A stretch of DNA of 34,287 nucleotides from Candidatus Poseidonia sp. Lineage in GTDB: Archaea > Thermoplasmatota > Poseidoniia > Poseidoniales > Poseidoniaceae. A program made the position numbers and the translations under genes. Positions 1,061 through 23,620 of the stretch are shown one piece after another. The notes beneath the pieces were generated by a model that was not told the origin of the DNA, did not search any database, and saw only the letters and a program-made list of their open reading frames with translations. Location: contig JAKMEE010000014.1 in NCBI GenBank assembly GCA_022426155.1, forward strand, positions 70,207-104,493. The letters run 5' to 3'. The stretch's first letter is position 1. Each line of letters begins with the position of its first letter.

Positions 1061-2638
1061 ATGCGCAATATTGTTTTTGTACTGCTTTCAACCGTTTTTT
1101 TGCTTTCATTCATTCCTCCAGCCTCAAGCCAAGTTTCAGGTGCCTCGGTCTCTATGGCATGTGAAGAAGGGAACTATTCAATCGCAGATTCACTCACCAA
1201 TGCTTCAGTCACCGTCACCTGTACGGTGAGTAATCCTACGTCCTATGTTGAACTGATCAGATTTGACTCGGCCAACACCGATTTCTCCATTGAAGCAATT
1301 CCAGACCTGTCCCTTGATGCAGGACAAGAGATGGATGTTAATTTCACCATCATCTCAGAGCATCGAATTGGTGAGCACCAAATCAGCATCGCAAGCATTG
1401 AGGCGAGCGTCATGGAATTGAACAATGTGCCCCCCCAAAACTCGGCCACTGCTGTAGTGAATATCCTCATTGAAGAAGGGGGCTATGTCAACAATGGTTG
1501 CTATACTGCAGCCACAACAACAGCAGATTATGTTGAATTCGAGATTGGTCAGCGTTCTTCAAACGGCACCATGGTCGAGCACGGGAGTATCGTCTTCCAA
1601 TTGAATTACAGTGCTGCACCCATCCATGCTGCAAATTTCGCTCTGCTTGCCGAGATGGGATGTTATGACAATGTCACCTTCCACCGTGTCATCAGTGACT
1701 TCGTGGTCCAAGGTGGTGACTTTACCGCAGGAAACGGGTCTGGGGGCCATGCAGCCTCATGGCAAGGCTATTGCAGTGGCCAAGCACAAACCAATTCGTC
1801 GGCTTGCCCTCCTACTCAGTGGACCATTCCCGATGAAGCAACCAATGGTTTGACCCATGTTTCATACGCTCTCTCCATGGCTGGCACCCCAGCCCAAAAC
1901 AACTCCGGTAGTCAATTCTTTGTTGTGACCAACAATTCACAAACCGAACATCTTGATGGAGCCCATACTGTGTTTGGCCATGTTTTTTCTGGAACGTCGG
2001 TGATTGATTTTATTGAAGGTGTGGCAACAGATTCAAGTGACCGCCCAATAGAGGATGTCGTCATCATCAATGCCAGGTTGGTTTCTGAGGGACAATCTGA
2101 CATCGACGGCGATGGAGTTCTCAACAGTGCTGATAACTGCCCCGACACTGCCAATACCGATCAATCTGACATGGACAATGACGGACTTGGTGATGAGTGC
2201 GATACCGACATTGACGGAGACGGTGTTGACAATGGCAACGATATCTTTCCCCAAGATCCAACTGAAACCGAGGACTCTGACCTTGACGGCATCGGTAATA
2301 ACGCAGATGCTGATGATGATGGCGATGGTGTAAACGACGCTGATGACGCATTTCCACTTGATGCTAACGAGACACTTGACACCGACCAGGATGGTATTGG
2401 CAATAATGCTGATGCTGATGATGATGGCGATGGTGTAGATGATTCCATTGACAATTGCCCATTAGATGTCAACCCAGATCAAGCAGATCAAGACGATGAT
2501 GGCATCGGTACTGCTTGCGACGGTAATGAGGTGAGCGGTGATGAATCCGCCCCCCTCCCGGCTGTTGGGCTTTTAGGAACGCTAACTGTCCTCATGAGTG
2601 CCATGATGTGGTCCCGAAAGCTTGACGCTGAATCTTGA
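1061..2638 (+). CDS. Secreted cyclophilin-type peptidyl-prolyl isomerase with thrombospondin type 3 repeats
   Basis: This 525-residue exported protein should catalyse cis-trans isomerisation of prolyl bonds outside the cell. Residues 1-23 form a signal peptide (hydrophobic core, then PPASSQ). Residues 30-140 look like a beta-sandwich. Residues about 150-340 are a cyclophilin domain with FHRVISDFVVQGGD (catalytic Arg and Gln), NNSGSQFFVV and HLDGAHTVFG. The tryptophan often found before LDG is His here. Residues 347-490 are Asp-rich type 3 thrombospondin repeats (DxDxDGxxD units), expected to bind calcium. The tail LPAVGLLGTL plus a hydrophobic stretch and a short basic end (SRK) resembles an archaeal C-terminal anchoring or sorting signal. 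ATG 1061 is chosen because the signal peptide begins there. No catalytic core residue seems lost. Fold assignment is firm; surface anchoring is inferred. Confidence 0.92.
   Translation: MRNIVFVLLSTVFLLSFIPPASSQVSGASVSMACEEGNYSIADSLTNASVTVTCTVSNPTSYVELIRFDSANTDFSIEAIPDLSLDAGQEMDVNFTIISEHRIGEHQISIASIEASVMELNNVPPQNSATAVVNILIEEGGYVNNGCYTAATTTADYVEFEIGQRSSNGTMVEHGSIVFQLNYSAAPIHAANFALLAEMGCYDNVTFHRVISDFVVQGGDFTAGNGSGGHAASWQGYCSGQAQTNSSACPPTQWTIPDEATNGLTHVSYALSMAGTPAQNNSGSQFFVVTNNSQTEHLDGAHTVFGHVFSGTSVIDFIEGVATDSSDRPIEDVVIINARLVSEGQSDIDGDGVLNSADNCPDTANTDQSDMDNDGLGDECDTDIDGDGVDNGNDIFPQDPTETEDSDLDGIGNNADADDDGDGVNDADDAFPLDANETLDTDQDGIGNNADADDDGDGVDDSIDNCPLDVNPDQADQDDDGIGTACDGNEVSGDESAPLPAVGLLGTLTVLMSAMMWSRKLDAES
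2099..2523 (+). repeat. Thrombospondin type 3 repeat tract in the cyclophilin gene
   Basis: The DNA encoding the Asp-rich calcium-binding repeats is internally repetitive. A 27-base block beginning GATGCTGATGATGATGG occurs identically near 2308 and again near 2410, roughly 100 bases apart, with diverged copies before and after. Encoded units alternate DIDGDGV-type and NCPD-type elements. Tracts like this can change copy number by slippage or recombination, so strain-to-strain length differences would not be surprising. Confidence 0.85.
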
Positions 2639-6900: not shown

Positions 6901-7085
6901 TTGGACACCTTTTCTAAACGGGGTGGACTTAGGGTTTGAGTCTTGTGTGACTTCCTCGTTCAACGGGGGAGGTTGTTCCACCTTCTTTACCGCGCCATTG
7001 CCTCCAAAGTTATGGAAAACATCTGATGTTTTGTTTAAACGAGGAAGGGCCGCTTTCAAATACCCCAAAAGCGCGGTACCATACT
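6901..7085. promoter_or_regulatory. Divergent promoter region between maeB and the giant surface-protein gene
   Basis: This is the longest gene-free stretch in the window (185 bases). It contains the palindrome GTTTAAAC at 7033-7040, a plausible TATA-like element usable in both directions. TTTCAAATA near 7054-7062 lies about 25-30 bases before the ATG at 7086, fitting a short-leader message. On the minus strand a purine-rich AAAAGGTG lies just upstream of the maeB ATG. No RNA gene is evident. Both frames across it remain partly open, so a longer maeB N-terminus cannot be fully excluded. Confidence 0.4.
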
Positions 7086-10000
7086 ATGTTCGCCAAGGCC
7101 AACGCCCGCCGCCCCGCTCGCAGCACCGCCCGAGCCGTGCTTCTTGCTTTTTTGATGGTCGCCTCTACGACCCTTTCATTGCTGGCTACACCTCTCGCTT
7201 CGGCTCACGCAGAGCCAAGTGATGTGACTTGGCCGCTCCAAGGAAGCAACGATACAGGATGGGTACAATTGGATGCCTTGGGAGCAAACCCTGCACTCGG
7301 GACTCAAGCCACAGCCGATTGGAATCTGAATTTCGCCCCAGGGGCGGAATTGTCGAATGTCACCATGGAAATTCGAATCAGTGGCCAAGACGGATTGGTG
7401 ATTGAAGAGCCTCTTCTCGCTGTGAACGGAATGGGCACTTCACTGTTCGATTGGAGAGGCCTTGGAGTGTTGGGTGAGGCCAACGAATTAGCAGGATCAA
7501 ACCCCTACACTGGTCGCCTCAATCCAAACAGCAACTCTGCTGCGGGTTGGGATCTTCCTTCAGATGCTGAAATCACTGAATTGATTTTCCAAGCATTGGC
7601 TCCAATAGACCCTGCAGTGTCCTTGCAACCTGTTGATTTGTCAATTCAAAGCAGCGCCATCCACCCGACCACCGGCCGTATGTATCTGGCCATGAATGAC
7701 GACGTGATGGTGCTCGATGCGACCACGTCTCCTTCGGCCATCGATATGTTGGATTTCTCAACCACTGGTGGCATTGCTGACATGGTAGTGGACGTCAACA
7801 ACAACCTACTTCACCTCCTTACCAAAAACGGGAGTTTTCATGCAATTTCGCTGAGCGATAGCACCTTCCAGACTCCTCTTGCTGACATCGATGCCGATCA
7901 CTTCCTCATGACCAGCGGAGGCGATGTGTTTGCGGCTGGCGGACCCGGCTTGTCGGTTTGGACTGGGTCGGCTTGGAACTCCGTTGTGACCGGTTCATCT
8001 TCTGGAGCGGGTGAGGCTCTATCGATGATAGAAGTCAACGGCGTGGTCTACGCTGCCCTCGATGGATTGGGCGTGTTGCGATACGATACAGCCAGTTCGA
8101 GTGCACTTTCAACGTGGAGTTCTGCCAACACTCTGCATTCCGACAGCATCACACACATGCTCGTCTCAGGCAATCAACTCCTGTTGGGCTCCTCCAATAA
8201 CGGCCTGGCTCGATATGACTATGCTGCTGGCTTTTGGCTCTCCACATGGAATTCAGCAAATTGGCTGGATGACAATTTCATCGGTGGTTTGGCCTTGGTC
8301 GACGACCAGCTCATGATACTCAACGGAGCTTCGCTTCACGCTTACAACACTTCGAACGCCAACTTTGGGGCAACCTATGACCTTGCTGATATGGGATTGG
8401 CGAGTGACGGAGAAGGTCTGATGATGTGGCCATCTAACGGCCCGGGATCTCCTGATGCAGATGTGGTTTTGGTGAACGATGGAAGCGGCTCGCTCGCTCG
8501 TGTGACTCCAACCGAAACCCCGGTGCTCAATGGAAGCATCCTCCTGTCGAGTGGCCCCCTCACCGATGACATGACCACGATTTCTGAAATGGGGGGCATC
8601 CTCTACATTGGAAGCGGAGACGGGACTGGTATCATGAGGTACGATACTTCCAATGCTGTTTGGATGACGCCGTTGGCCCTGAACGAAGAAACACTCATCA
8701 TCACAAACGACGGCACCGACCTCTTTGTCGCTACTGGTGGCACTCCTCAAAACACTCCAACACTTTACCAAATGGCGTCCGATGGAACACAATTGAATGC
8801 ATGGAACAGTAATTGTCTGATTCAAGGAGATGACCCCCTCGGCATGGATGTTGATTCATCTCATATTGCCATAAGCATGGAGGATGGCGGATTCACCATT
8901 ATCGAACGCAGTACAAGCACTTGTACCACTTATACAAGAAACACTGGCATTCCTTCTTCCTTCCTTGGTGATGTTGCCCTACACAGCGCTAAGGCCTACG
9001 TTGCAACCGAAGACAAAGGCGTGTTGCGTTATGACATCACCAACGACACGTGGTTAGAACCATGGGGTTCAACGGGCATCAACGGTGTTGATTATGCAGC
9101 CATCGCAGTTGTCGGCGATATTCTCCATCTTGGCCTCCAAGGCTACGGCGTGGTTCGTAAAGATCTGTCAACGGGTGAAATCTTGGCCCCGCTTACTGCG
9201 AATAATGGGCCAAACTCTCAACTTCCAAGTAGCAATATTTTTGCCCTTGAAACCGACGGTGTCAATCTTTACATCGGTACTTCACAGGGGGCTCGAAAAT
9301 GGGATGGCAGTCAAATGACAACGTTTGGCCAGGGGTCATCTTGGGACACCCGTCCAAATTCATTCTTTGATTTCGTTGCGGAAGCAAGCACCGGTGGAGG
9401 AGATTTGTATGCCGCTACAAACATCGGCGTTTGCAAGTACAACATCGCAACTTTAGGGATCATCGACTGTCAAAACGTGCAGGACGGGATGCCGGATTGG
9501 GCCGTTTACTCGGTAGGTGTCGACACCAACAACGTCTACGGTGGAACCAATCAAGGAGTCGGTATCATCACAAAATCAAATTTCCAACATAGCACAAACT
9601 GGGGAGAAGGAACACAGACCGGAAACGCTGCTCTCGAAATTATTGGAGACATCGCCTACGTCGGCTTAGACGGCATGGGTGTGCTGCGTTACAACCTCAC
9701 TTCTGAAGAGTGGTTGACGCCTTGGACCGAGGACAACGGTGTTCTCGACGGTGGCAATGATGGTGTTACTGGTTTGGTAGCGGACATTCGTAACAACTAC
9801 ATTTGGGTGGGAGGCGGTGATGGATTTCAATTAATCAACATCACCACTGGAGCTGAAGTCTACGACATTGAGAAAACAAGCAGCCTGTACAATGGTAACG
9901 GCGACCCTTACCAAATGATGATTCATAACAACATTATGTATTACCACTCAAAGACGGCCAATGATGAAGTCGGCCGAATTGATGTAGCCAACCTCACCAA

Positions 10001-13000
10001 CCCTGGTGATTTGGATATCGGGGCCCAAGTTGGAGAAAACGGCGGCGATATTTACGGCATGGGAATGGTAGGAAATACCCTCATGGTAAGCGTTGCATCA
10101 GGTCAGTGGTGGAATGCTGATGGGTCTGGAGGCATTGCAATGTTCAATACGAGTAACGGCTCGTATGGAACCAATATCCTACCAACTGGACAGATCGACC
10201 GCGTGACATCTCATCAAACCTCAACAGGAAATATGTGGGTTTCTTGGGGGGAATTACGACTCGACCTCTACAACAATACAGGGGCTTTGATCAATTCCTG
10301 GGAGAACCTTGGCCTCCCCATCCGTGGCATCGTGGAGTTCGATGGAAAGGTACTCTTTGCTTCCGAAGACGGCGTTTTACGCTACGACGAAAGTACGAAT
10401 CTGTGGTTGACTCCATGGACAGCGGGTAACGGACTCCCCAACAATGCCGGCGACCGATTCTATGAATTGTGGACCGATGGCAACGATCTCGTTGTCGGTG
10501 GTGCTGATTTCACTGGCTGGGGGGGTTTCTCCGAAGGCATCATTTCGCATCTTGATTCAAGTGGAAGTTGGCAATCCTATGCAGCCGATTCCTACACAAG
10601 CATTCCTGACGGATACCCCATTTCCATGGATATGTGCGGTGGTTATCTTCACGTAGCCATGTACAATAACAACGGTGGTGTGGCAAGAATCGACCTCCAA
10701 AATCAAACTGTCGTGACCGGCTTTACATCGAGTTCGTTGGATGGAACGGCCCCTGCATCCCTCGTTTGTGACACGTCCGACACACTCTACATCGGCTATT
10801 ATAACGATAATCAACCCATTACAAAATACAGTTATGCTTCCAATTCATACCTTACCAGCCTCACAACACGCAGTCACAACGTGCCAAGTGACCGAATCTG
10901 GTACGACGGTTTAGCCTACGCAAATGGGCAACTCATTGCAGGGCATGGTCAAGGAGGCTCTGGAAGCAATGTGATCGGTGGAGGATACAGCACTTACACC
11001 TCAAGTGGAGCGACTACAACGCAGGCCAACATTCAGGGAAGCGGTTCTTCCGTCACCTCATTCCAATGGCTTGGGAGTAGCGTTGGATGGATGATCGGCC
11101 AAGCGGGTGGCTCGTCGGGTTACAGCCATGTCTCGACCATTTCATCTCTTGGACGGCAAACCGTTGTTGACCTCCCTGGCATCGTCAGTGGACAAGTCAC
11201 TTCAATGACTGGAAACAGCACCCATCTTTGGGTTGCTACCGAAGGCGTTCCAACAGGCACAGGCTTTGGATTAAGCACAGGAGCTGGATTACTCCAAGGA
11301 GAATTCCTCCCTAATGGCGAAGTTGATTGGCAATTTGGATGGACACTCACTGCCGGTTCATCGGTGCGTTCCATGTCACTTCAAGGAACGACACTCTACA
11401 TGGCTACCAACCCAACTGGATTATACCAACTCAATACCGTCTCCGCTACGCTATCGAGCCAAAGTGGAGCACTGCACGACAACTTCGATGAAATGATGGT
11501 GTACAATAACGACCTCGTAATCGGTCTGGCCGGAGATGGTGGATCATCTCCTGGAATCCAAACCTTCGACATGAACACACAACAATTCACGAATGGACGA
11601 TTGGTGGCAGGGCTGCCCTCAAACAACGTCAACGGTTTTGCCGCGACATCCACCGTGATGTACATCGCTACCAACGGAGGCCTTGGACGATGGAACTACA
11701 CCAGCAATGATTGGATGGATTCTATCACCACCAACGACGGATTACCCAGCAACATTGTCGAAGACATCGCCATCGTTGGCTCAACATTGATGCTTGCAAC
11801 ACCCGTTGGATTGGTAGCATGGGATGTTGCCACTAGCACGATCACAACCCTGGACACCTCTGACGGTATGATGGGAACTTCTGTTTGGGGATTGACCACC
11901 GTTGTGGACGCGAACGGAAACACCGCACTTTACGCAAGTCACGATGGTGCAGGAGCAGACCGGCCCGGCGTATCGGTCATCGATGCCTCTACGTTATCGG
12001 TGACATCCACGCATCGATTCGACCAACTTCCATCCAACACTGTTACGGCCCTTACCAGCGACTGGTGGGGAGTGCACATGGCTACCGACCTTGGCCCATT
12101 GACTCACTGGAATGCATCAAACGGTGAATTCGAAGACGGTGTGAGGTTCCAAGCCTCACAATACCCGATCATTGGAATGATGAGCGATGGGGATGAGGTC
12201 TTGGCCCTGGCCCCAAATACTGCCTTGCTCGTTGAGGCTCGAAGCGCTGGACATACATGGCTGACATATCAACAAAACAGGGACATCATTGGTGGGGTGT
12301 TATCTGACGACCACATGTGGACGATTTCCGATCACGGCCTTCAGGGTTGGTGGCGAAACGGGCAATTCACGCCCGTGGATGACTTTTCGATGCGAAGAGC
12401 CAGTCCACTGAGCGTTCGTGGCCTAGGAACAAGTGGACCACTTGACATCACCGACATGACCCATCCAAACGTCAACATTCAGTTAGTAGACCCAACGTTC
12501 CCATACGCTTTGGACAGCGAGATTGGTGCAATCGGGGTTCACGGTCTACGATTCCAAAACGTCCCCTTGGTCTTCACTTCCAGCGTTGCTGGTGCTGCTA
12601 TTTGGGCGCAAGGCGTCTCATTGAAGTACGATGCAACCCTTGACATCAGCAACGATACAGCATTAATGTCAACTCTTCAACTCGCCGTTGATAATGGACA
12701 ACTCTACAACAATACACGCCATGTGCAACTTCGCTTGTATTCGCCCTCAAACGGCTCGATGGAAGTCCGTTTGACCTACGATTATATTCGAAATGATACG
12801 CCGGTCGTTCTCGAAGAATTGATCGATCGTCCCGATGACGGCGGTAGCGCACTCACCGCTTCATGGTCCCTTGTTCACGACGAAGATTTTGCACGCTATC
12901 TCATCTTTGCGAACGAAGGAGCCTGGGATGGTATGCCCACCGAACTTGATTTGATGACACGTTCACCTGACAAGACGATTTCATTGCACAGTCGTTTATC

Positions 13001-15392
13001 CAGTGAAATTGAATCCGCTAACGGGCAACCGCTCGTCGACGGAACGGATTACTACGCTGTCGTCGTTGTTGAATACAACGATGGAAGATGGGGGGAAATT
13101 TCCATGCCTGTAGGTCCAGCAAGTCCTTCAGATGAAGTACCAATGGCCCCACTTTGGGCAACAGCGAGTGCGATGGGAAGTAACGGTGATGACGGTGATA
13201 TTGAGCTCGAATGGGCACGATGCACGGCGCTTGACCTCGCCCACACCAATCTCTATGTGTCCAACACACCGTTCACGGATGTCTTTGGAATGGAATTGGA
13301 AACATCAGTTTTACCCAATGAAGGTAATTTGTCAACACTCTCTTTGACCCCTGGAGTCCCAGTTTGGATCGGTTTCACATGTGTGGACGATGCAGGACAG
13401 GAAAACCTGAGCGATGTTACCGTAGTAGGACCTGTTGTCCCCACTGGAGAACTCAATGACAATGAGGCCCCAGACCCGATTGAAGGAACTCAGGCTGCTG
13501 ACATACCCGATGATGAAGGCGGACGTATCAGTGTTTCATGGAATGCAAGTTCCGCAGAAGATTGTGCGTTTTACACCGTATTCATGGAGCAAGGAGGCGA
13601 TTCAAATGACGATGGTATAATTGGCAGCGTCGATGGATTCTCGCAAGCCGTTATCGTTAATTCGTGTGATGATAACCAAACCATCATTTCATCATTGGAC
13701 GGCGTGCCTCTCATTGACGGACAGACCTACACCATCGGCGTCGTCGCCTACGATGTTTGGTTGAACGGGAATACAGACGAAGTTCTGCTCGTTTCGGCAA
13801 CGCCATTCCAGAACATCATCGGTTCTGGAACAGCCCCAGAACGCATCACGAACCTCTTGGCCTTCGACCATCCCGACGACGATGGAACCGCTATTGATGT
13901 GGTCTGGGCCCCGTCCGGGGCAGTTGACTTTGCATCCTACACTGTGTGGGTGGCGGATCAACCTGTGAGCGACCTCTCTGTGGCCTACGCAAGTTTCGGA
14001 ACGAATCCTGACAAGTGCGGGTGTTTCACCTTTGACAAACAATGGATTGATGAAGAAACAAATCCGATAGAATTGACAATCTCAACCGCACTATACACCC
14101 CTTCGGATGGAACTTCACTTCTCGATGCACTCCCTGGATTAATTCAGCCTGATATTGAACTCTTCGTGACCGTTACAGTTCACGACATCAAAGGTAATGT
14201 TCACCTAACTGAACTCACTCAAGCCACGGTTTTACCCATTGACAATCTTAACGATGTGACACCTCCAAATCGACTTGATGACCTCTCCTTGGTTGACCGC
14301 CCTCTAGATGATGGCTCAGCACTGTTGCTAAATTTCAGCCTATCAGATGCACCCGATGTGAAGACGTACGAAGTCTATGCTGCCACTTACGAATTTACCG
14401 ATGTGACGACCGCTGGTAATGGCCCACCCGCCCCGATTGCGATTCTTTCAAGAAACCCAGAATTACCTTTGATGATCGACCTCGTTTCTGGCGACACACC
14501 GGTCATTGCAGGACAGGATATATGGGCGGCTGTTGTGGTTCGTGACTCCTCTGGAAATGCCATTGAATTTGACCTCGTTTCCGTCAAGGGCCAATCCGAA
14601 GATAACGGAGTCACCGACCCAGGTAGTTATTTGCCTGATATTCGAAACATCAGAACAGCTTGGAGCGATGAAACCAGCATCTTCGTGGAGTGGGATCACT
14701 CTCTTGATGCTCAAGTGAAAGGATATCAGATTTATATTTCCAACGAGGATTTCTCAGACACCGATGATGCAACCATGGTTGGTGAAGTAAAGGCATCGAA
14801 TTCCTTCCTCATCACGACAACCCTCTTCGGGGACCTGTCCAATGAATCCAACTGGTACATCGCTGTCAGTCCATTTGACAATTTTGTCAACAAGAAGACC
14901 GTTGAACCAGTAGAACTTCCGGCATTGACCGGTCAAATTACCGCCGAACCTGATGCAGGAGATGACGGCGGGATTTCCTTGGAATCCTTCCTCACGACCC
15001 CTAATATGCTGGTTGCTGGCCTATTTATTGTGGCCATGCTTCTAGTGATTTTGATTGTTCGAACCCGAGGCACGAATTCACGGAAAAACAAGTCATGGGA
15101 ATTGCAAGAAGCAACGTGGGGCATCCAGGACCAAAATTGGGGAGATGCTCCACCCGCCCCTCCTGCTGCGCCACCTCCCGCTCCTGCAACTGGTATTACA
15201 CAGCAACAATCCAACGATATTTACGCGGCTGCCAATCAAATCCAATCTTCAGATTATGCTCGTCCAGCTTACCAACCCTCTCAACCTGTTTTACAACCTC
15301 AGGTTCAAACCAATGTGTTGGGAGACTTGTTGGATGAAGCACCACCAAAATCACCTCAAATCGATACATCGTTCCTTGACGACCTCTTGTGA
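7086..15392 (+). CDS. Giant secreted/anchored surface protein: beta-propeller repeats, FN3-like repeats, C-terminal TM and cytoplasmic tail
   Basis: The gene encodes 2768 residues. An Arg-rich N-terminus and hydrophobic core ending LATPLASAHA form a signal peptide (about 1-42). Residues about 130-1750 carry many propeller-blade repeats of the two-component-regulator-propeller style. Examples are GVLRYDITNDTWLEPW, GVLRYNLTSEEWLTPW, GVLRYDESTNLWLTPW and GLGRWNYTSNDWMDS, each followed by GLPSN-like turns. About six fibronectin-III-like modules follow (1890-2620), several opening with a PDDxG signature (RPDDGGSALTASW, HPDDDGTAIDVVW, RPLDDGSALLLNF). One transmembrane helix lies at about 2640-2661, then basic RTRGTNSRKNK, a Pro/Ala-rich linker and the acidic ending DTSFLDDLL. 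The topology implies a large extracellular adhesin or receptor with a cytosolic tail. ATG 7086 places the signal peptide correctly. The stop overlaps the next gene by four bases (GTGA). The ligand is unknown. Confidence 0.88.
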   Translation: MFAKANARRPARSTARAVLLAFLMVASTTLSLLATPLASAHAEPSDVTWPLQGSNDTGWVQLDALGANPALGTQATADWNLNFAPGAELSNVTMEIRISGQDGLVIEEPLLAVNGMGTSLFDWRGLGVLGEANELAGSNPYTGRLNPNSNSAAGWDLPSDAEITELIFQALAPIDPAVSLQPVDLSIQSSAIHPTTGRMYLAMNDDVMVLDATTSPSAIDMLDFSTTGGIADMVVDVNNNLLHLLTKNGSFHAISLSDSTFQTPLADIDADHFLMTSGGDVFAAGGPGLSVWTGSAWNSVVTGSSSGAGEALSMIEVNGVVYAALDGLGVLRYDTASSSALSTWSSANTLHSDSITHMLVSGNQLLLGSSNNGLARYDYAAGFWLSTWNSANWLDDNFIGGLALVDDQLMILNGASLHAYNTSNANFGATYDLADMGLASDGEGLMMWPSNGPGSPDADVVLVNDGSGSLARVTPTETPVLNGSILLSSGPLTDDMTTISEMGGILYIGSGDGTGIMRYDTSNAVWMTPLALNEETLIITNDGTDLFVATGGTPQNTPTLYQMASDGTQLNAWNSNCLIQGDDPLGMDVDSSHIAISMEDGGFTIIERSTSTCTTYTRNTGIPSSFLGDVALHSAKAYVATEDKGVLRYDITNDTWLEPWGSTGINGVDYAAIAVVGDILHLGLQGYGVVRKDLSTGEILAPLTANNGPNSQLPSSNIFALETDGVNLYIGTSQGARKWDGSQMTTFGQGSSWDTRPNSFFDFVAEASTGGGDLYAATNIGVCKYNIATLGIIDCQNVQDGMPDWAVYSVGVDTNNVYGGTNQGVGIITKSNFQHSTNWGEGTQTGNAALEIIGDIAYVGLDGMGVLRYNLTSEEWLTPWTEDNGVLDGGNDGVTGLVADIRNNYIWVGGGDGFQLINITTGAEVYDIEKTSSLYNGNGDPYQMMIHNNIMYYHSKTANDEVGRIDVANLTNPGDLDIGAQVGENGGDIYGMGMVGNTLMVSVASGQWWNADGSGGIAMFNTSNGSYGTNILPTGQIDRVTSHQTSTGNMWVSWGELRLDLYNNTGALINSWENLGLPIRGIVEFDGKVLFASEDGVLRYDESTNLWLTPWTAGNGLPNNAGDRFYELWTDGNDLVVGGADFTGWGGFSEGIISHLDSSGSWQSYAADSYTSIPDGYPISMDMCGGYLHVAMYNNNGGVARIDLQNQTVVTGFTSSSLDGTAPASLVCDTSDTLYIGYYNDNQPITKYSYASNSYLTSLTTRSHNVPSDRIWYDGLAYANGQLIAGHGQGGSGSNVIGGGYSTYTSSGATTTQANIQGSGSSVTSFQWLGSSVGWMIGQAGGSSGYSHVSTISSLGRQTVVDLPGIVSGQVTSMTGNSTHLWVATEGVPTGTGFGLSTGAGLLQGEFLPNGEVDWQFGWTLTAGSSVRSMSLQGTTLYMATNPTGLYQLNTVSATLSSQSGALHDNFDEMMVYNNDLVIGLAGDGGSSPGIQTFDMNTQQFTNGRLVAGLPSNNVNGFAATSTVMYIATNGGLGRWNYTSNDWMDSITTNDGLPSNIVEDIAIVGSTLMLATPVGLVAWDVATSTITTLDTSDGMMGTSVWGLTTVVDANGNTALYASHDGAGADRPGVSVIDASTLSVTSTHRFDQLPSNTVTALTSDWWGVHMATDLGPLTHWNASNGEFEDGVRFQASQYPIIGMMSDGDEVLALAPNTALLVEARSAGHTWLTYQQNRDIIGGVLSDDHMWTISDHGLQGWWRNGQFTPVDDFSMRRASPLSVRGLGTSGPLDITDMTHPNVNIQLVDPTFPYALDSEIGAIGVHGLRFQNVPLVFTSSVAGAAIWAQGVSLKYDATLDISNDTALMSTLQLAVDNGQLYNNTRHVQLRLYSPSNGSMEVRLTYDYIRNDTPVVLEELIDRPDDGGSALTASWSLVHDEDFARYLIFANEGAWDGMPTELDLMTRSPDKTISLHSRLSSEIESANGQPLVDGTDYYAVVVVEYNDGRWGEISMPVGPASPSDEVPMAPLWATASAMGSNGDDGDIELEWARCTALDLAHTNLYVSNTPFTDVFGMELETSVLPNEGNLSTLSLTPGVPVWIGFTCVDDAGQENLSDVTVVGPVVPTGELNDNEAPDPIEGTQAADIPDDEGGRISVSWNASSAEDCAFYTVFMEQGGDSNDDGIIGSVDGFSQAVIVNSCDDNQTIISSLDGVPLIDGQTYTIGVVAYDVWLNGNTDEVLLVSATPFQNIIGSGTAPERITNLLAFDHPDDDGTAIDVVWAPSGAVDFASYTVWVADQPVSDLSVAYASFGTNPDKCGCFTFDKQWIDEETNPIELTISTALYTPSDGTSLLDALPGLIQPDIELFVTVTVHDIKGNVHLTELTQATVLPIDNLNDVTPPNRLDDLSLVDRPLDDGSALLLNFSLSDAPDVKTYEVYAATYEFTDVTTAGNGPPAPIAILSRNPELPLMIDLVSGDTPVIAGQDIWAAVVVRDSSGNAIEFDLVSVKGQSEDNGVTDPGSYLPDIRNIRTAWSDETSIFVEWDHSLDAQVKGYQIYISNEDFSDTDDATMVGEVKASNSFLITTTLFGDLSNESNWYIAVSPFDNFVNKKTVEPVELPALTGQITAEPDAGDDGGISLESFLTTPNMLVAGLFIVAMLLVILIVRTRGTNSRKNKSWELQEATWGIQDQNWGDAPPAPPAAPPPAPATGITQQQSNDIYAAANQIQSSDYARPAYQPSQPVLQPQVQTNVLGDLLDEAPPKSPQIDTSFLDDLL

Positions 15393-18814: not shown

Positions 18815-20110
18815 TCACGATTTAGCGTGAATTTTGAGGACGTCTCCGTCGCTTAACTCGTGTTCAGCCCCGACAACTCGGCGTGTTTTTCCATCCACGC
18901 CTCGGATGAATCCATCACCCAAATCGGTGTGAACATGGTAGGCTAATGCTTTGGCTTGTATGGAAGATGGAACGACAAATGCATCTGGAAGGACCTTCCC
19001 CTCTCCATCGACCCAGTGAGTCTCATCTTGCACGGGGTAAACAACGATACGTTCCAATTGATCAAACAATACGCGGTCAAGCAAACGGGCCACCCCTGTA
19101 CCGCCAGCATCCATGATTTTCTTCATCATGTGATTGAGAGCTTTCTCCTGAGGCTCGCTCAATGATGCATCGTTGAGCAGTGCGAAACTTGTATCGCCTG
19201 GTTGATAATCGATCATACCTGCAGAGGTGGCGCGTCGAAGCGCTAATTCCATGTCCGCCATGCATGGCTCCAATGCAATATCTTGGAACGAAGAGAGGAC
19301 ACCTGGGGGCGCTATATCGAACTTATTGGCTGCGTAAGCGATGGGGAACAAAGATTGGCGGAGAACTTGAGCGAGGTGGCGAAGAACTGAGGCATCCCAT
19401 TCCCAAGGTTGGACTGAGACTGTCGTACTTTGTTGGAATTCATGCAGGGCTTGATTGACGGATGAGGCCGTAGCACCCAGTCCACTCAATCGTTCATGAA
19501 TAAACGAGGCAAGACCTTTGTCGCCTTCAGCCTGGACACGCCGAACACCACGAGACCATCCCTCGTTGAGAATACCAGCAATCCAAGCGTCCAATTCCTC
19601 ATGGAGAAATGTAATCTCTTCATGCAATGAGGCAATGGCTTGTTCTGAATTTGAAGCCCCACCAAGGAATTGACCTTCCAGATCAGTGGAGCCCGCGGCA
19701 TCGACCACTTGGATCAGTGCGTCGCTGTTGGCCAAATCAGAAAGAAAGGCATTACCCCGACCTCTTCCTTCACTTGCTCCAGGAACCAGTCCAGCTACAT
19801 CGACCAAGGCCACAGGAACAAAGCGGCGATGAGCAATGCAAGACCCCGTACGGGGCTGGCAAAGACTTCCCTTTCTGGGATCCTCAACTTGTGTTTCTTC
19901 CAATCGACCATCTTGCTCCAATCGTTCGCGTAACTGTTTGCAAGGGCAAGAGAGCCTTGCTTCAACGAAGGCAACACCGACATTGGGGTCAATGGTGCAA
20001 AACGGATAATTGGCAATGTCGACTTGGGCTTGAGTTGCTGCACTGAAAAATGTGGATTTCCCCACGTTTGGTTTTCCAACCAACCCAATTCGCAATTCAT
20101 TCACGACCAA
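18815..20110 (-). CDS. YchF/OBG-family GTPase with TGS domain
   Basis: This translation-factor-class P-loop protein probably acts at the ribosome. In 431 residues: G1 GKPNVGKST; switch I region ANYPFCTIDPNVG, characteristic of OBG-like proteins; G3 DVAGLVPGASEGRGRGNAF; a helical insert (about 150-260) rich in charged residues; and G4 NKFD. Canonical bacterial YchF has NxxE and prefers ATP, so NKFD suggests GTP here, as in archaeal relatives. The C-terminal TGS domain begins near 345 and ends in ELSDGDVLKIHAK. A Cys-containing insert after the switch region (RLSCPCKQ and SLCQPRTGSC) is unusual and might bind metal or sense redox. The listed start is TTG 20110; GTG 20104 is an alternative, with GAGGAG upstream. 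It follows the EF-hand membrane protein by nine bases. Confidence 0.88.
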   Translation of the reverse strand: MVVNELRIGLVGKPNVGKSTFFSAATQAQVDIANYPFCTIDPNVGVAFVEARLSCPCKQLRERLEQDGRLEETQVEDPRKGSLCQPRTGSCIAHRRFVPVALVDVAGLVPGASEGRGRGNAFLSDLANSDALIQVVDAAGSTDLEGQFLGGASNSEQAIASLHEEITFLHEELDAWIAGILNEGWSRGVRRVQAEGDKGLASFIHERLSGLGATASSVNQALHEFQQSTTVSVQPWEWDASVLRHLAQVLRQSLFPIAYAANKFDIAPPGVLSSFQDIALEPCMADMELALRRATSAGMIDYQPGDTSFALLNDASLSEPQEKALNHMMKKIMDAGGTGVARLLDRVLFDQLERIVVYPVQDETHWVDGEGKVLPDAFVVPSSIQAKALAYHVHTDLGDGFIRGVDGKTRRVVGAEHELSDGDVLKIHAKS

Positions 20111-20119
20111 GACGAAATG

Positions 20120-22060
20120 TCACTCCTCTTCGGATGAAGAGGGTGTGATGCCATGGCTGCGACGAATCTGTGCAATAGCGATGTCAATTTCTGGGAGGTT
20201 CAATTCTCCATCTCCATCAAGATCCATGCTTGCCAACAAATCAGAGGCGTTTTCGATGGTCAAGAACGGGACGTTGGAGGCCTTCATGGCAGCCAAGAAT
20301 TCTTTTGCGTCCACCTTACCTGAGGCGTCAAGGTCCATTGAGGCAAAGACTTGGAAGACACTTTGACCACTATCGGTCAAGTATTGAACAAATTGAATCA
20401 TGGCTTCGGTGGGGGTCATCAGAACCGTGTGGCCCCCCTTTGCTTCTTCACCAGAACCTACAACAAGGGTTGTGTCGACTCCAACACCCCTACCCAGGAG
20501 TTGCCGAATGGTTGTTGAAGAGCCCTCGACCATGGTGTAGGTTGCCACGTCGGATACTTGGTCTGCTTCGACACGAGTACCCACAGAAATTCCTGTTCGA
20601 ATGATGACAAGCGTGGCGAAGATTGCACCGATACCGAGCAAGTAGAACATAGCGGCTCCAGTCAGGAAGAAGCCGCCGGATTGTGCAACAGCGTCTTCAA
20701 CACCTGAGGCAGCAACAGCATTGTTTGTGAAATCCCCTGTCACAAAAGTGAGAGTTGAGGAAACACCACCAACAAGCACCAACCACATAGCCATATTAGC
20801 GGTTGATGGGGTAGCGAGCTTCTTGTTCACTGCCAAAGGATAGTTTGTGAAGGATGCTGCGAGAATCAATAAGCCACCAACGGTGAATTGCATGCCCATG
20901 TCGATTGAATGAGCCATAGCGCCAAGTTCTCCAGTTCCAACGAAGGCGTCCATTGAAGTGAAGTAACCACCAATGGCAAAGAAAGGAAGTAAGACAAAGG
21001 CGAACAAAGCAGCGGTTGCACCCGGGTTCTTCACCACTGAACTGAGTCCTGAACTGGCTGTCATGATGATGTTAACAGAGGCTGCGAAGAGAGGTATGAG
21101 GGCCAGCGTCAACAAGATTGCTCCAACGTTGGTCAGGAAGTTACTGGCCGATGCATCGGTCATGAAGAATGGAGGGATGGTCATGAACAACAGGACCATG
21201 CTCGCCGTTCGCATTGATCCAGACCAAATGGGTTGGTTGGAAACCATTGGAATCACGTAATAGCCCACGGCAAACATCAGTGCGAGTGGAACCCATCCAG
21301 TTGAAACTCGCTCGCCCAACCACACCGTTTGAGTTGATGAGGACAATTCGCCAAAGAACAGGAAAAACATCGCAATGATGTTCGATGTTAATGCCATCAC
21401 CAAGAACCAGGAACTGGTTGAAAGTTCCTCATCGCCTCGACCAGCGATGGTAATCAAGACGTTGATGAGCACTGGAATCAAGATGAAGCCAATGGCAAGA
21501 GTTTCCAAGCTGAGTAGGAAGCGGGATATGCCGGTTGCTTCGGTATCAATACCAAGGAATCCAAGGATGACAGGGAGCACATAGCTTGTTACAACCATAA
21601 CAGAAAGTAAGAGAGCCATCATGGAAGCGTTCGCTTCACTAGCCAATCGTCCGTTACCATTTCGAGCTGCAGCAAGCATGGCGCCTCCCACCAATCCATA
21701 GAGCAAGGCAACACCGAGAAGGTGCTGAGTGGCATCACGGAGGGATGAGCCATCATCGTACGACCAACCAATGCTGGCTAAAGAGTCCAATGCAGTAGGG
21801 TCGTAAGAATGCCAAGCTGCAAGGAACCCGAGCACGCTTGCAAAGACAAACCAAAGCATACCGAAGTTCATCCATGTGCGAGAGCCACTTCCATTTTTGT
21901 CATCAAAGAGATCGACAAGGCCGGGTGGGTTTTTTCGCAATATGAACAAACCGATTTGCTTCAGGGCCGCTCCCATTTCACCGACACCTCGTGCGAGTGA
22001 TTGGGATAGGAAAAAGAGGGTTGCTACCAAAATAGTTGTTGAAATGAAGACTGTTTCCAT
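20120..22060 (-). CDS. Heme-copper-oxidase subunit I-like 12-helix membrane protein lacking CuB histidines, fused to a C-terminal EF-hand pair
   Basis: The 646 residues have an extra N-terminal helix (5-22), then about 12 helices (64-487), then a soluble tail. Local motifs resemble cbb3 oxidase subunit CcoN in the same order. LRDATQHLLGVALLYG corresponds to helix 2 (H113). VWLGE with VGYYVIPMVSNQPIWS corresponds to helix 6, where CcoN has YGH and YYFIP...RPIYS. SVNIIMTASSG corresponds to CcoN INGxMTLSG. AMAHSIDMG in helix 10 corresponds to GHVHSGALG (H384). The CuB histidine is E250, and the HH pair of helix 7 is absent. Only H113 and H384 lie in matching helices, so O2 reduction is very unlikely, while binding one b-type heme is possible. 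Residues 576-587 and 613-624 are canonical EF-hand loops (DLDASGKVDAKE, DLDGDGELNLPE). Strong Shine-Dalgarno GGAGGTG precedes ATG 22060. Homology is inferred by eye. Confidence 0.72.
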   Translation of the reverse strand: METVFISTTILVATLFFLSQSLARGVGEMGAALKQIGLFILRKNPPGLVDLFDDKNGSGSRTWMNFGMLWFVFASVLGFLAAWHSYDPTALDSLASIGWSYDDGSSLRDATQHLLGVALLYGLVGGAMLAAARNGNGRLASEANASMMALLLSVMVVTSYVLPVILGFLGIDTEATGISRFLLSLETLAIGFILIPVLINVLITIAGRGDEELSTSSWFLVMALTSNIIAMFFLFFGELSSSTQTVWLGERVSTGWVPLALMFAVGYYVIPMVSNQPIWSGSMRTASMVLLFMTIPPFFMTDASASNFLTNVGAILLTLALIPLFAASVNIIMTASSGLSSVVKNPGATAALFAFVLLPFFAIGGYFTSMDAFVGTGELGAMAHSIDMGMQFTVGGLLILAASFTNYPLAVNKKLATPSTANMAMWLVLVGGVSSTLTFVTGDFTNNAVAASGVEDAVAQSGGFFLTGAAMFYLLGIGAIFATLVIIRTGISVGTRVEADQVSDVATYTMVEGSSTTIRQLLGRGVGVDTTLVVGSGEEAKGGHTVLMTPTEAMIQFVQYLTDSGQSVFQVFASMDLDASGKVDAKEFLAAMKASNVPFLTIENASDLLASMDLDGDGELNLPEIDIAIAQIRRSHGITPSSSEEE

Positions 22061-22074
22061 GCATCACACCTCCA

Positions 22075-22356
22075 TTATTCTGCGAGCACCTCGCCCACAA
22101 GTGTGGCCACGATGGCCCCGACTCCAACAAGGAATCCAATCAAGTAATACCAAATGCCGCTCCCACCGAGATTTCCAATGAGAGGCACGACTTCACCCAA
22201 GAGCGGAAGGTTGTCCCAGCCGAAGACATTTGAAAAGAGTGAATAAAGGCCCATGAGACCCACAAAAATGAGAGTGAGGACAATGCGGCTTGAGGTTGGT
22301 TCACCTGTTCCAACCGTGGTATCTGGCAGCGATGTGGAGTTTGACACGGGTCTCAC
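22075..22356 (-). CDS. Small two-helix membrane protein, possible partner of the oxidase-like protein
   Basis: In this 93-residue protein a polar Ser/Thr-rich N-terminus (1-22) precedes one membrane helix at about 24-44 (IVLTLIFVGLMGLYSLFSNVF). A loop with several Gly and Pro follows (NLPLLGEVVPLIGNLGGSG), then a second helix at about 68-90 (IWYYLIGFLVGVGAIVATLV). There are no cysteines, histidines or recognised motifs. The start is GTG 22356, or GTG 22347 with AAAGGTGA just upstream; the downstream start has the better ribosome-site spacing. It ends 14 bases before the EF-hand membrane protein, so the two are almost certainly co-transcribed and may form a complex, like the small accessory subunits of oxidases. 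That partnership is inference from position only. Confidence 0.65.
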   Translation of the reverse strand: MRPVSNSTSLPDTTVGTGEPTSSRIVLTLIFVGLMGLYSLFSNVFGWDNLPLLGEVVPLIGNLGGSGIWYYLIGFLVGVGAIVATLVGEVLAE

Positions 22357-22453: not shown

Positions 22454-23620
22454 TTATGGAGAGCGAAGTGCGTTAAGCACGGGTCCGCGTCGGGGCTTTG
22501 AAATTCCCAATGGCAGGGGGAGTTGACGTTCAAGAGTCAGTTCGGTTTCCCAAGTTCGCTGGCAAGAACATGAAAGTCCATCAAATTCATTCAAACTTCC
22601 AGAAACTGCATAACGTTCGATGGCTGCAACAACTTCTCCGTCGCATTGACCGCAATTATGAGAACCACGGACTTTCCCTCCTGCTGTTGGATGAACTATC
22701 AAACGTGACACCTGGTCAGCCTCACCGTTGAGACCTCCTTCAGGATGGATTGAAGGGTGAGCGAGTCGAATCATTTCAACGAGTGACCAGAGCCAGGGGG
22801 GGCGATATTCGTTATGACGATGCAATCGGTCGATCACCGTGCCTCTTTGGATGTTCATCGGATTGACCGATATTTCATCGGAGCGTTCCGCAACAGCTGC
22901 AATCCAGCGTACACTATGAGTCAAGGCATCGGATTCACTCATGAACGGTGGTTTGAACATGAGGTAGGTTTTCACGCGAAGATTGAATTTCTGCAAATTG
23001 GTGACTGCACGATCCCAAGAGGATGTGGTGAAACCTTTGTTGACGTGAAAGCGAAGAACTTCATCGTCGTAGGCTTCCAATCCAATGGCTACTGAAAACG
23101 ATGGGTTGATGGTCACAGCCCAACTCAACTTTTCTTCAGTTAATTGTTCACATCGGCTTTCCACAATCAATTCTTTGCCCAATTCATGGCAGTCACGAAG
23201 AACTGTTTCTTGGAATTCAACGGGGATTTCACGGTCTTCTAGCAAACTACCTGAGGTGTAAACTTTGATCATGTCGTGGCCTTCGAATCCATCAAATTTC
23301 GTCTTAGCTGCCTCCCATTGAGCGTGCAGATCGTCGTTGGTGACATCATCACGTGTATCGTTGAAATAGCCACAGAAGGTACAACCGGACGACCACCACC
23401 AATGGCATCCCTTGGTTCGTAGGATTACCGTAACTGCGCTACAGGGCGTTCCATCGGGCAACACTTCTGGCGTTGCATAAACCGTAGCGGGTTCAGACGC
23501 ATCCCAAGATTGCTGCCGTGCTTTAGCCCATGGTGTATTTGCTGGTGCTTTGACCAAATCATGAATCCGGAGACCTTTGCCACCTTTGCCCAACAAATTG
23601 ACAGGGGGTGGTCCATTCAT
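22454..23620 (-). CDS. Archaeosine-biosynthesis radical SAM enzyme (RaSEA type)
   Basis: The 388-residue protein fits the archaeosine RaSEA family. These enzymes work with archaeosine synthase ArcS to convert lysine-modified preQ0 at tRNA position 15 into archaeosine. The 4Fe-4S cysteines are C72, C80 and C83 in GCHWWWSSGCTFCGYFNDT, spaced C-x7-C-x2-C instead of the classic C-x3-C-x2-C. Next come IKVYTSGSLLEDREIP, the family-typical strand after the cluster, then ELIVESRCEQLTEEKL and VAIGLEAYDDEVLRFHVNKG, typical of Elp3/YhcC-like radical SAM barrels. The C-terminus has additional cysteines (HNCGQCDG and LSCSCQRTW) that could hold a second metal site. ATG 23620 is used. It lies 35 bases after the hydrolase gene on the same strand. 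Family assignment is good. A generic YhcC-like enzyme is the alternative. Confidence 0.82.
   Translation of the reverse strand: MNGPPPVNLLGKGGKGLRIHDLVKAPANTPWAKARQQSWDASEPATVYATPEVLPDGTPCSAVTVILRTKGCHWWWSSGCTFCGYFNDTRDDVTNDDLHAQWEAAKTKFDGFEGHDMIKVYTSGSLLEDREIPVEFQETVLRDCHELGKELIVESRCEQLTEEKLSWAVTINPSFSVAIGLEAYDDEVLRFHVNKGFTTSSWDRAVTNLQKFNLRVKTYLMFKPPFMSESDALTHSVRWIAAVAERSDEISVNPMNIQRGTVIDRLHRHNEYRPPWLWSLVEMIRLAHPSIHPEGGLNGEADQVSRLIVHPTAGGKVRGSHNCGQCDGEVVAAIERYAVSGSLNEFDGLSCSCQRTWETELTLERQLPLPLGISKPRRGPVLNALRSP

Follow-up and report, generated by a model that had tools for sequence, protein, structure and literature searches.

A CcoN-like membrane protein family of Poseidoniales archaea without family-wide haem or copper ligands

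Haem and copper sites define the haem-copper oxidases (HCOs), and an order-wide family in which selection has kept the HCO fold after those sites were lost has, to our knowledge, not been described; a search of open-licence papers found no order-wide, cofactor-less HCO-fold family. Here we describe a candidate, which we call the pseudo-oxidase gene, in a 34,287-nucleotide stretch of Candidatus Poseidonia sp. DNA (the window; GenBank assembly GCA_022426155.1, contig JAKMEE010000014.1), part of contig C22 of a genome of 1.99 Mb and 48 contigs. The closest described system is CcoN/FixN, subunit I of cbb3 oxidases, including divergent forms from Cupriavidus, Paraburkholderia and Sinorhizobium. These keep the haem and CuB histidines that the pseudo-oxidase has lost. 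Unlike CcoN, the pseudo-oxidase has a 93-aa two-helix protein as its neighbor, and some members of its family carry an EF-hand or SAP tail; the partner CcoO was not found in 60 genomes (FixO model, 0/60; the same model matches 2/14 controls). Nitric oxide reductase NorB scores below CcoN in fold comparison and has no sequence match to our family profile at E ≤ 10; the pseudo-oxidase lacks its haem and metal ligands, and the neighbors identified are not NorC. Compared by description only, halobacterial fam02696 is likewise an uncharacterized archaeal relative of HCO subunit I; in the relevant passages of PMC9258230 it has no Pfam or KEGG annotation, shows distant homology to HCO subunit I and, unlike the pseudo-oxidase, often has genuine genes for cbb3 subunit I or NorB as neighbors. 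The closest EF-hand relative of the pseudo-oxidase tail found in the genome is the NuoL of the window's genus, which carries an EF-hand insert and differs in having an antiporter-like fold and an unrelated membrane domain.

Fold, descent and ligand positions

The pseudo-oxidase gene (20120–22060, minus strand, as are all its parts) has an ATG start and encodes a 646-aa membrane protein. Its AlphaFold2 model has an extra N-terminal transmembrane helix (residues 2–24; 21989–22057), a loop helix (residues 30–43) and then twelve long helices within residues 58–491 (20588–21889), so that apart from the loop helix it agrees with the original prediction of twelve helices after an additional one. A post-membrane stretch follows (residues 514–530; 20471–20521); model confidence there is low, and residues such as R519, G525, D529 and T530 are conserved across the two families compared below. 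Two canonical 12-residue EF-hand loops lie in the tail (residues 576–587 and 613–624; 20300–20335 and 20189–20224). The C-terminus would lie inside, judging by analogy with CcoN and by the basic residues of those loops that are predicted to be inner.

Homology to the C-family (cbb3, CcoN-like) subunit I is shown by sequence comparison, in line with the oxidase-like fold originally proposed. The family profile matches CcoN chains at E = 1.4e-10 (hmmsearch), and profile–profile alignment (hhalign) gives E = 1e-9, with controls at 0.47 (reversed profile) and 0.14 (NuoL). Scores improve further against divergent bacterial CcoN-like forms (E = 8.6e-18), which are the nearest relatives and some of which share the extra N-terminal helix; the alignment to the Cupriavidus protein begins at Cupriavidus residue 1. 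A Komagataeibacter CcoN-like protein aligns at 6e-6, and a match to an amino-acid permease (4.3e-4) arises solely through the permease's EF-hands. We regard the HCO fold and descent of the protein as nearly certain. An A-type origin was rejected (hhalign E = 0.05 to the order's own A-type-like oxidases), as was an ancestral genuine CcoN within the order, since TIGR00780 reaches its cut-off in 0/96 genomes; its weak matches in 36/96 genomes are mostly 768–826-aa frames resembling the true oxidase, one being in a pseudo-oxidase family member.

For comparisons within the order, 94 alignment rows were reduced to 81 unique sequences, 58 from one family (f1), which we take to be Poseidoniaceae, and 23 from a second family (f2), which we take to be Thalassarchaeaceae, the other subgroup named in the passages of PMC9258230 consulted here. 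Profile A1 was built from 26 chosen rows. A 56-row alignment left out the NuoL locus L002, the duplicates L060 and L061 and the partial L029 and L055, and a further set of 38 was obtained from 77 named loci by removing ten (containing X or shorter than 600 aa) and near-copies at 92% identity.

As a family, the pseudo-oxidases have lost the cofactor ligands of this fold. Alignments to bacterial forms map four of the six ligand positions, to A110, R251, I386 and M388. The hhalign alignment to CcoN confirms R251 and places the helix-7 pair at F298/F299, leaving the helix-10 pair in a gap; an alternative helix-7 mapping, from the hhalign alignment to bacterial forms, gives T301 and a gap. The CuB position in helix 6, earlier assigned to E250, is thus R251, and the helix-7 histidine pair is missing as predicted. 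Of the three segments said to follow CcoN order, YYVIPMVSNQPIWS and SVNIIMTASSG pair with the corresponding CcoN segments in hhalign; the third, AMAHSIDMG, is paired by HMMER and by the alignments to bacterial forms with the stretch of CcoN helix 10 that holds the ligands, and loses that pairing in hhalign, which gaps the ligand pair. Histidines are, as the prediction had it, almost absent from the window protein (84, 113, 384, 544 and 636), which has no cysteine. Under either helix-7 mapping, the mapped ligand positions hold no histidine in 66/81 homologues and one in 15/81. Histidine occurs at both low-spin haem positions in 0/81, at high-spin column 386 in 0/81 and at column 251 in 12/81, and the full CuB set is intact in 0/81 aligned homologues of the order, consistent with the predicted loss of the CuB site and of oxidase activity. 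Helix-7 columns 290–307 hold no histidine in any of the 81 (f2 sequences L047 and L056 carry one in an insertion there), and no column from 285 to 303 has tyrosine in more than 3/81, a helix-7 tyrosine being an active-site feature of C-family HCOs.

Other residues are shared by both families: W63, W70, W83, N200, T204, W218, W247, W279, S280, P323, A326, N330, T334, P408 and Y473. In the aligned sequences the fold and these scaffold residues are kept with no family-wide haem or CuB ligand, and the pseudo-oxidase very probably carries no HCO-type cofactor. Because it retains the HCO scaffold but lacks the features that define HCO enzymes, we file it as a relative of the HCOs and not as a member.

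Distribution, selection and calcium modules

The gene is widespread. It is matched in 166/194 genomes of the class; the misses listed among the other 28 include 7 in f1 or f2 and 13 in a third family. Every one of 59 genomes including the window's own has a match, restricted to the EF-hand part in G016 and to the EF-hand part plus an N-terminal fragment in G005. Across the phylum 64/243 genomes are matched, all in f1 or f2 except one weak match elsewhere (G358, 65 positions, E = 8.5e-4). No viral copy was found among 120 candidate stretches. In genome G013 the main match (C39:15781–17745, residues 7–645) has a short distance upstream of it an extra piece covering residues 1–65 (C39:15449–15643), which could be a partial duplication, a frameshift or an assembly error.

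Synonymous sites are near saturation in most pairs compared, with one unsaturated among the 14 listed. In that close pair (L104/L084) dN is 0.05 and dS 1.11 over residues 1–500, which at the sequence level shows purifying selection in this single pair. A decaying gene copy was rejected, since the gene is widespread, its reading frames are open and dN/dS in the unsaturated pair is low; the original prediction had allowed that the window copy might be simply degenerate if homologues with intact CuB histidines existed, and none was seen among the 81.

Just upstream lies the gene for a 93-aa protein (22075–22356, minus strand) in which two hydrophobic segments can be made out by eye. Its gene is found on the same strand at 31/32 f1 and 23/24 f2 loci, both misses being contigs that end there, and lies 9 to 15 nt upstream of the pseudo-oxidase gene in 38/54 loci. 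Within the window's genus it is better conserved (77–91%) than the pseudo-oxidase (57–72%); NCBIfam gives no match to it, and Pfam none below E = 1.8. This constant small neighbor suggests a complex, and we think it somewhat probable that the two proteins pair. The presence of the gene in 166/194 genomes, its synteny with the 93-aa partner and purifying selection in the one unsaturated pair together argue for a conserved pseudo-oxidase instead of a decaying copy.

The two EF-hands noted earlier are supported by a Pfam EF-hand_1 score of 27.3 bits (cut-off 25.4). Their loop residues are near-invariant in the 58 f1 sequences (positions 576, 587, 613, 617 and 624 are identical in 58/58), and the two leading aspartates occur in 0/23 f2 sequences. 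Of the two families, EF-hand tails are thus limited to Poseidoniaceae, and their calcium binding is predicted. SAP, a motif for nucleic-acid binding, matches at the C-termini of L032, L033, L053 and L054, the last two carrying EF-hands as well; a SAP domain on a membrane protein is odd. Passages of PMC9258230 describe calcium-binding families that are specific to each of two Poseidoniales subgroups, and also 199 Poseidoniales-associated families; the pseudo-oxidase family may figure nameless in that study.

Within the window's own genome, the only other place matching the pseudo-oxidase is NuoL of complex I. There a His-rich stretch and an EF-hand pair are inserted in one loop, presumably cytoplasmic on the NuoL topology that we assume, of a gene within the complex I cluster (G000:C38, L198:9939–12485). 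The other EF-hand proteins of the genome (18 matches at E ≤ 0.1) come nowhere near the tail module (43 vs. 104 bits). Among 49 NuoL examined, 11 have the insert (9/9 from the window's genus and 2/2 from the f2 genus g14; L198 and L200–L209) and 38 lack it, and inserts of the window's genus share 58–66% identity with the nearest pseudo-oxidase tails. In the EF-hand tree these inserts fall among the pseudo-oxidase tails and those of g14 fall apart, a sequence-based result that favors two origins and is compatible, on its strongly supported branches, with one. Strict co-occurrence of EF-hands in the pseudo-oxidase and NuoL was rejected, as it was not found among the 49 NuoL.

Weighing the possible roles

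The identity of the protein is well supported; its role we infer. We give about an even chance to its being a cofactor-free protein of HCO fold that acts as a scaffold or regulator. A non-redox role is suggested because every family-wide cofactor ligand has been lost, partner subunits are absent and the gene is nevertheless retained; the similar NuoL module is a pointer to calcium and to the membrane of the respiratory chain. That the role is one of scaffold or regulator linked to respiration we hold tentatively, at somewhat less than even chance. The pseudo-oxidase would then form a membrane complex with the 93-aa protein and serve the respiratory membrane as a scaffold or regulator without redox activity. 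Its EF-hand tail in Poseidoniaceae, cytoplasmic by comparison with CcoN, would read cytosolic Ca2+ and thereby alter that interaction; a closely similar module sits in the NuoL loop of the window's genus. It would be a bolder and rather unlikely proposal that in this archaeal order a subunit of a terminal oxidase lost its redox function and became a controller (or ion conduit) of the respiratory membrane, Ca2+-responsive in one family, and that complex I of one genus acquired a calcium module of this kind as well, so that one calcium signal is read by two parts of the chain. The pseudo-oxidase would be evidence that the oxidase fold remains useful without its cofactors, and abundant ocean archaea would gain a pair of membrane genes that is nearly order-wide and had no annotation. 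Most sampled genomes of the two main marine group II (MGII) families encode it, and in it a machine for reducing oxygen seems to have been put to another use. Calcium control of archaeal respiration would become directly testable.

Several results weigh against the scaffold or regulator reading. For f2 alone the match to CcoN is weak (hhalign E = 5.5e-4, compared with 2.3e-8 for f1 alone and 1.4e-11 for f2 against the Cupriavidus type), and the Pfam COX1 model does not match the gene in its own genome. Histidine is present at the CuB helix-6 column in 10/23 f2 and 2/58 f1 sequences and at column 388 in 3/58 f1, and haem held by unusual residues may be compatible with the sequence data. Genus g14 has the NuoL insert and its aligned pseudo-oxidase, L049, has no EF-hand, so that, given also the distribution of the insert, the EF-hands of NuoL and of the pseudo-oxidase do not track each other. 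The EF-hand tree was built from 84 columns and many of its forks are open, including that of the inserts and most tails (support 94/84, drawn open). A conserved neighbor is not proof of a complex, and no gene linkage of the pseudo-oxidase to complex I or the true oxidase was seen.

Two alternatives would restore a cofactor. The original prediction was of a non-oxidizing HCO with a calcium sensor attached, whose only haem would be the low-spin haem b, held by H113 and H384. The HCO fold is there, and the window protein does have histidines within four residues of both low-spin positions, yet it is the only one of the 81 that does. H113 lies three residues past the low-spin position A110, and H384 two ahead of the high-spin position I386 and four ahead of the low-spin M388; in alignments covering the low-spin positions, the ligands map to A110 and M388, and hhalign to CcoN gaps the helix-10 pair. 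The homologue test proposed with that prediction goes against it (H113 in 1/58 f1 and 0/23 f2, H384 in 18/58 f1 and 0/23 f2), making it very improbable. A metal or haem site unlike those of HCOs, confined to one family, is improbable to a lesser degree. It would draw on conserved histidines that sit off the oxidase ligand places and could form new metal sites: in f2, columns 86, 92 and 164 (predicted outer side) and 129 and 482 (inner side), each histidine in 74–91% of the 23, and in f1, columns 84 (55/58) and 268 (44/58). These also count against a wholly cofactor-free family, but the f2 set reaches 0 to 2% in f1 and the f1 pair 0/23 and 2/23 in f2, which argues against a shared function; no column has histidine in at least a quarter of both families, and the window protein itself has tyrosine at 268.

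Two further alternatives, each of which we consider unlikely although clearly less so than a cofactor site, give the protein another role. In one the emptied oxidase core would conduct H+ or Na+ as a channel or transporter, gated by the Ca2+-loaded tail. MGII are proposed, in a passage of PMC6336850, to use both ions. Four polar residues close to those ends of helices 5 and 9 that are predicted to be cytoplasmic (N200, T204, N330 and T334) are almost invariant. Two of them, N330 and T334, align with N and T in the INGMMT segment of CcoN, and the similar EF-hand module of NuoL sits in an antiporter-like subunit. The conserved polar residues may instead be structural, and the remaining residues that we assume to form the cbb3 K-pathway (helix-6 Tyr, Tyr317, Ser240 and His243 of P. 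stutzeri) map to different or non-conserved residues; an intact K-pathway was rejected, with only the helix VIII N and T apparently kept when judged against these assumed residues. Mean conservation differs little between inner and outer helix halves (0.549 vs. 0.517, with 14 vs. 8 positions at 0.9 or above; helix ends set by eye), and E142, the near-invariant acidic residue touching a core helix, is at its very end. The other makes the protein a membrane sensor, whose HCO-fold domain would bind a ligand or quinone and signal through residues 514–530 and variable tails. Tails do vary by clade (EF-hands in f1; SAP at the four loci above) and residues of the 514–530 stretch are kept, but there is no known output domain, and most aligned f2 members have neither an EF-hand nor a SAP tail. 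Relative to these, the scaffold or regulator reading remains the one we prefer.

Flanking genes and other observations

The pseudo-oxidase gene and its 93-aa neighbor belong to a conserved one-strand order: RaSEA, 93-aa protein, pseudo-oxidase, YchF-related GTPase. RaSEA, the archaeosine radical SAM protein (22454–23620, minus strand; TIGR01210, 283.5 bits), is probably functionally unrelated to the pseudo-oxidase; the YchF-related GTPase (18815–20110, minus strand; PRK09602, 429.7 bits) follows downstream after a gap of 9 nt.

The genome's true COX1 scores slightly below the cut-off of the CtaD model (638.1 vs. 670.75 bits); COX2 adjoins it and COX3 is next, by eye. This COX1 (L063:1249–3576, minus strand) has a long N-terminal extension matching a choice-of-anchor V domain (NF041895, 72.3 bits). 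A second COX1 (G000:C6, L062:1266–2945; NCBIfam CtaD, 694.4 bits) looks mitochondrial by eye, and its contig may be a bin contaminant. Elsewhere in the window, 7026–15392 (plus strand) encodes a protein of 2788 aa in which propeller-like stretches recur and the C-terminus has a membrane helix, and 1061–2638 (plus strand) a cyclophilin-like protein that continues into thrombospondin-type-3-like calcium repeats, both judged by eye.
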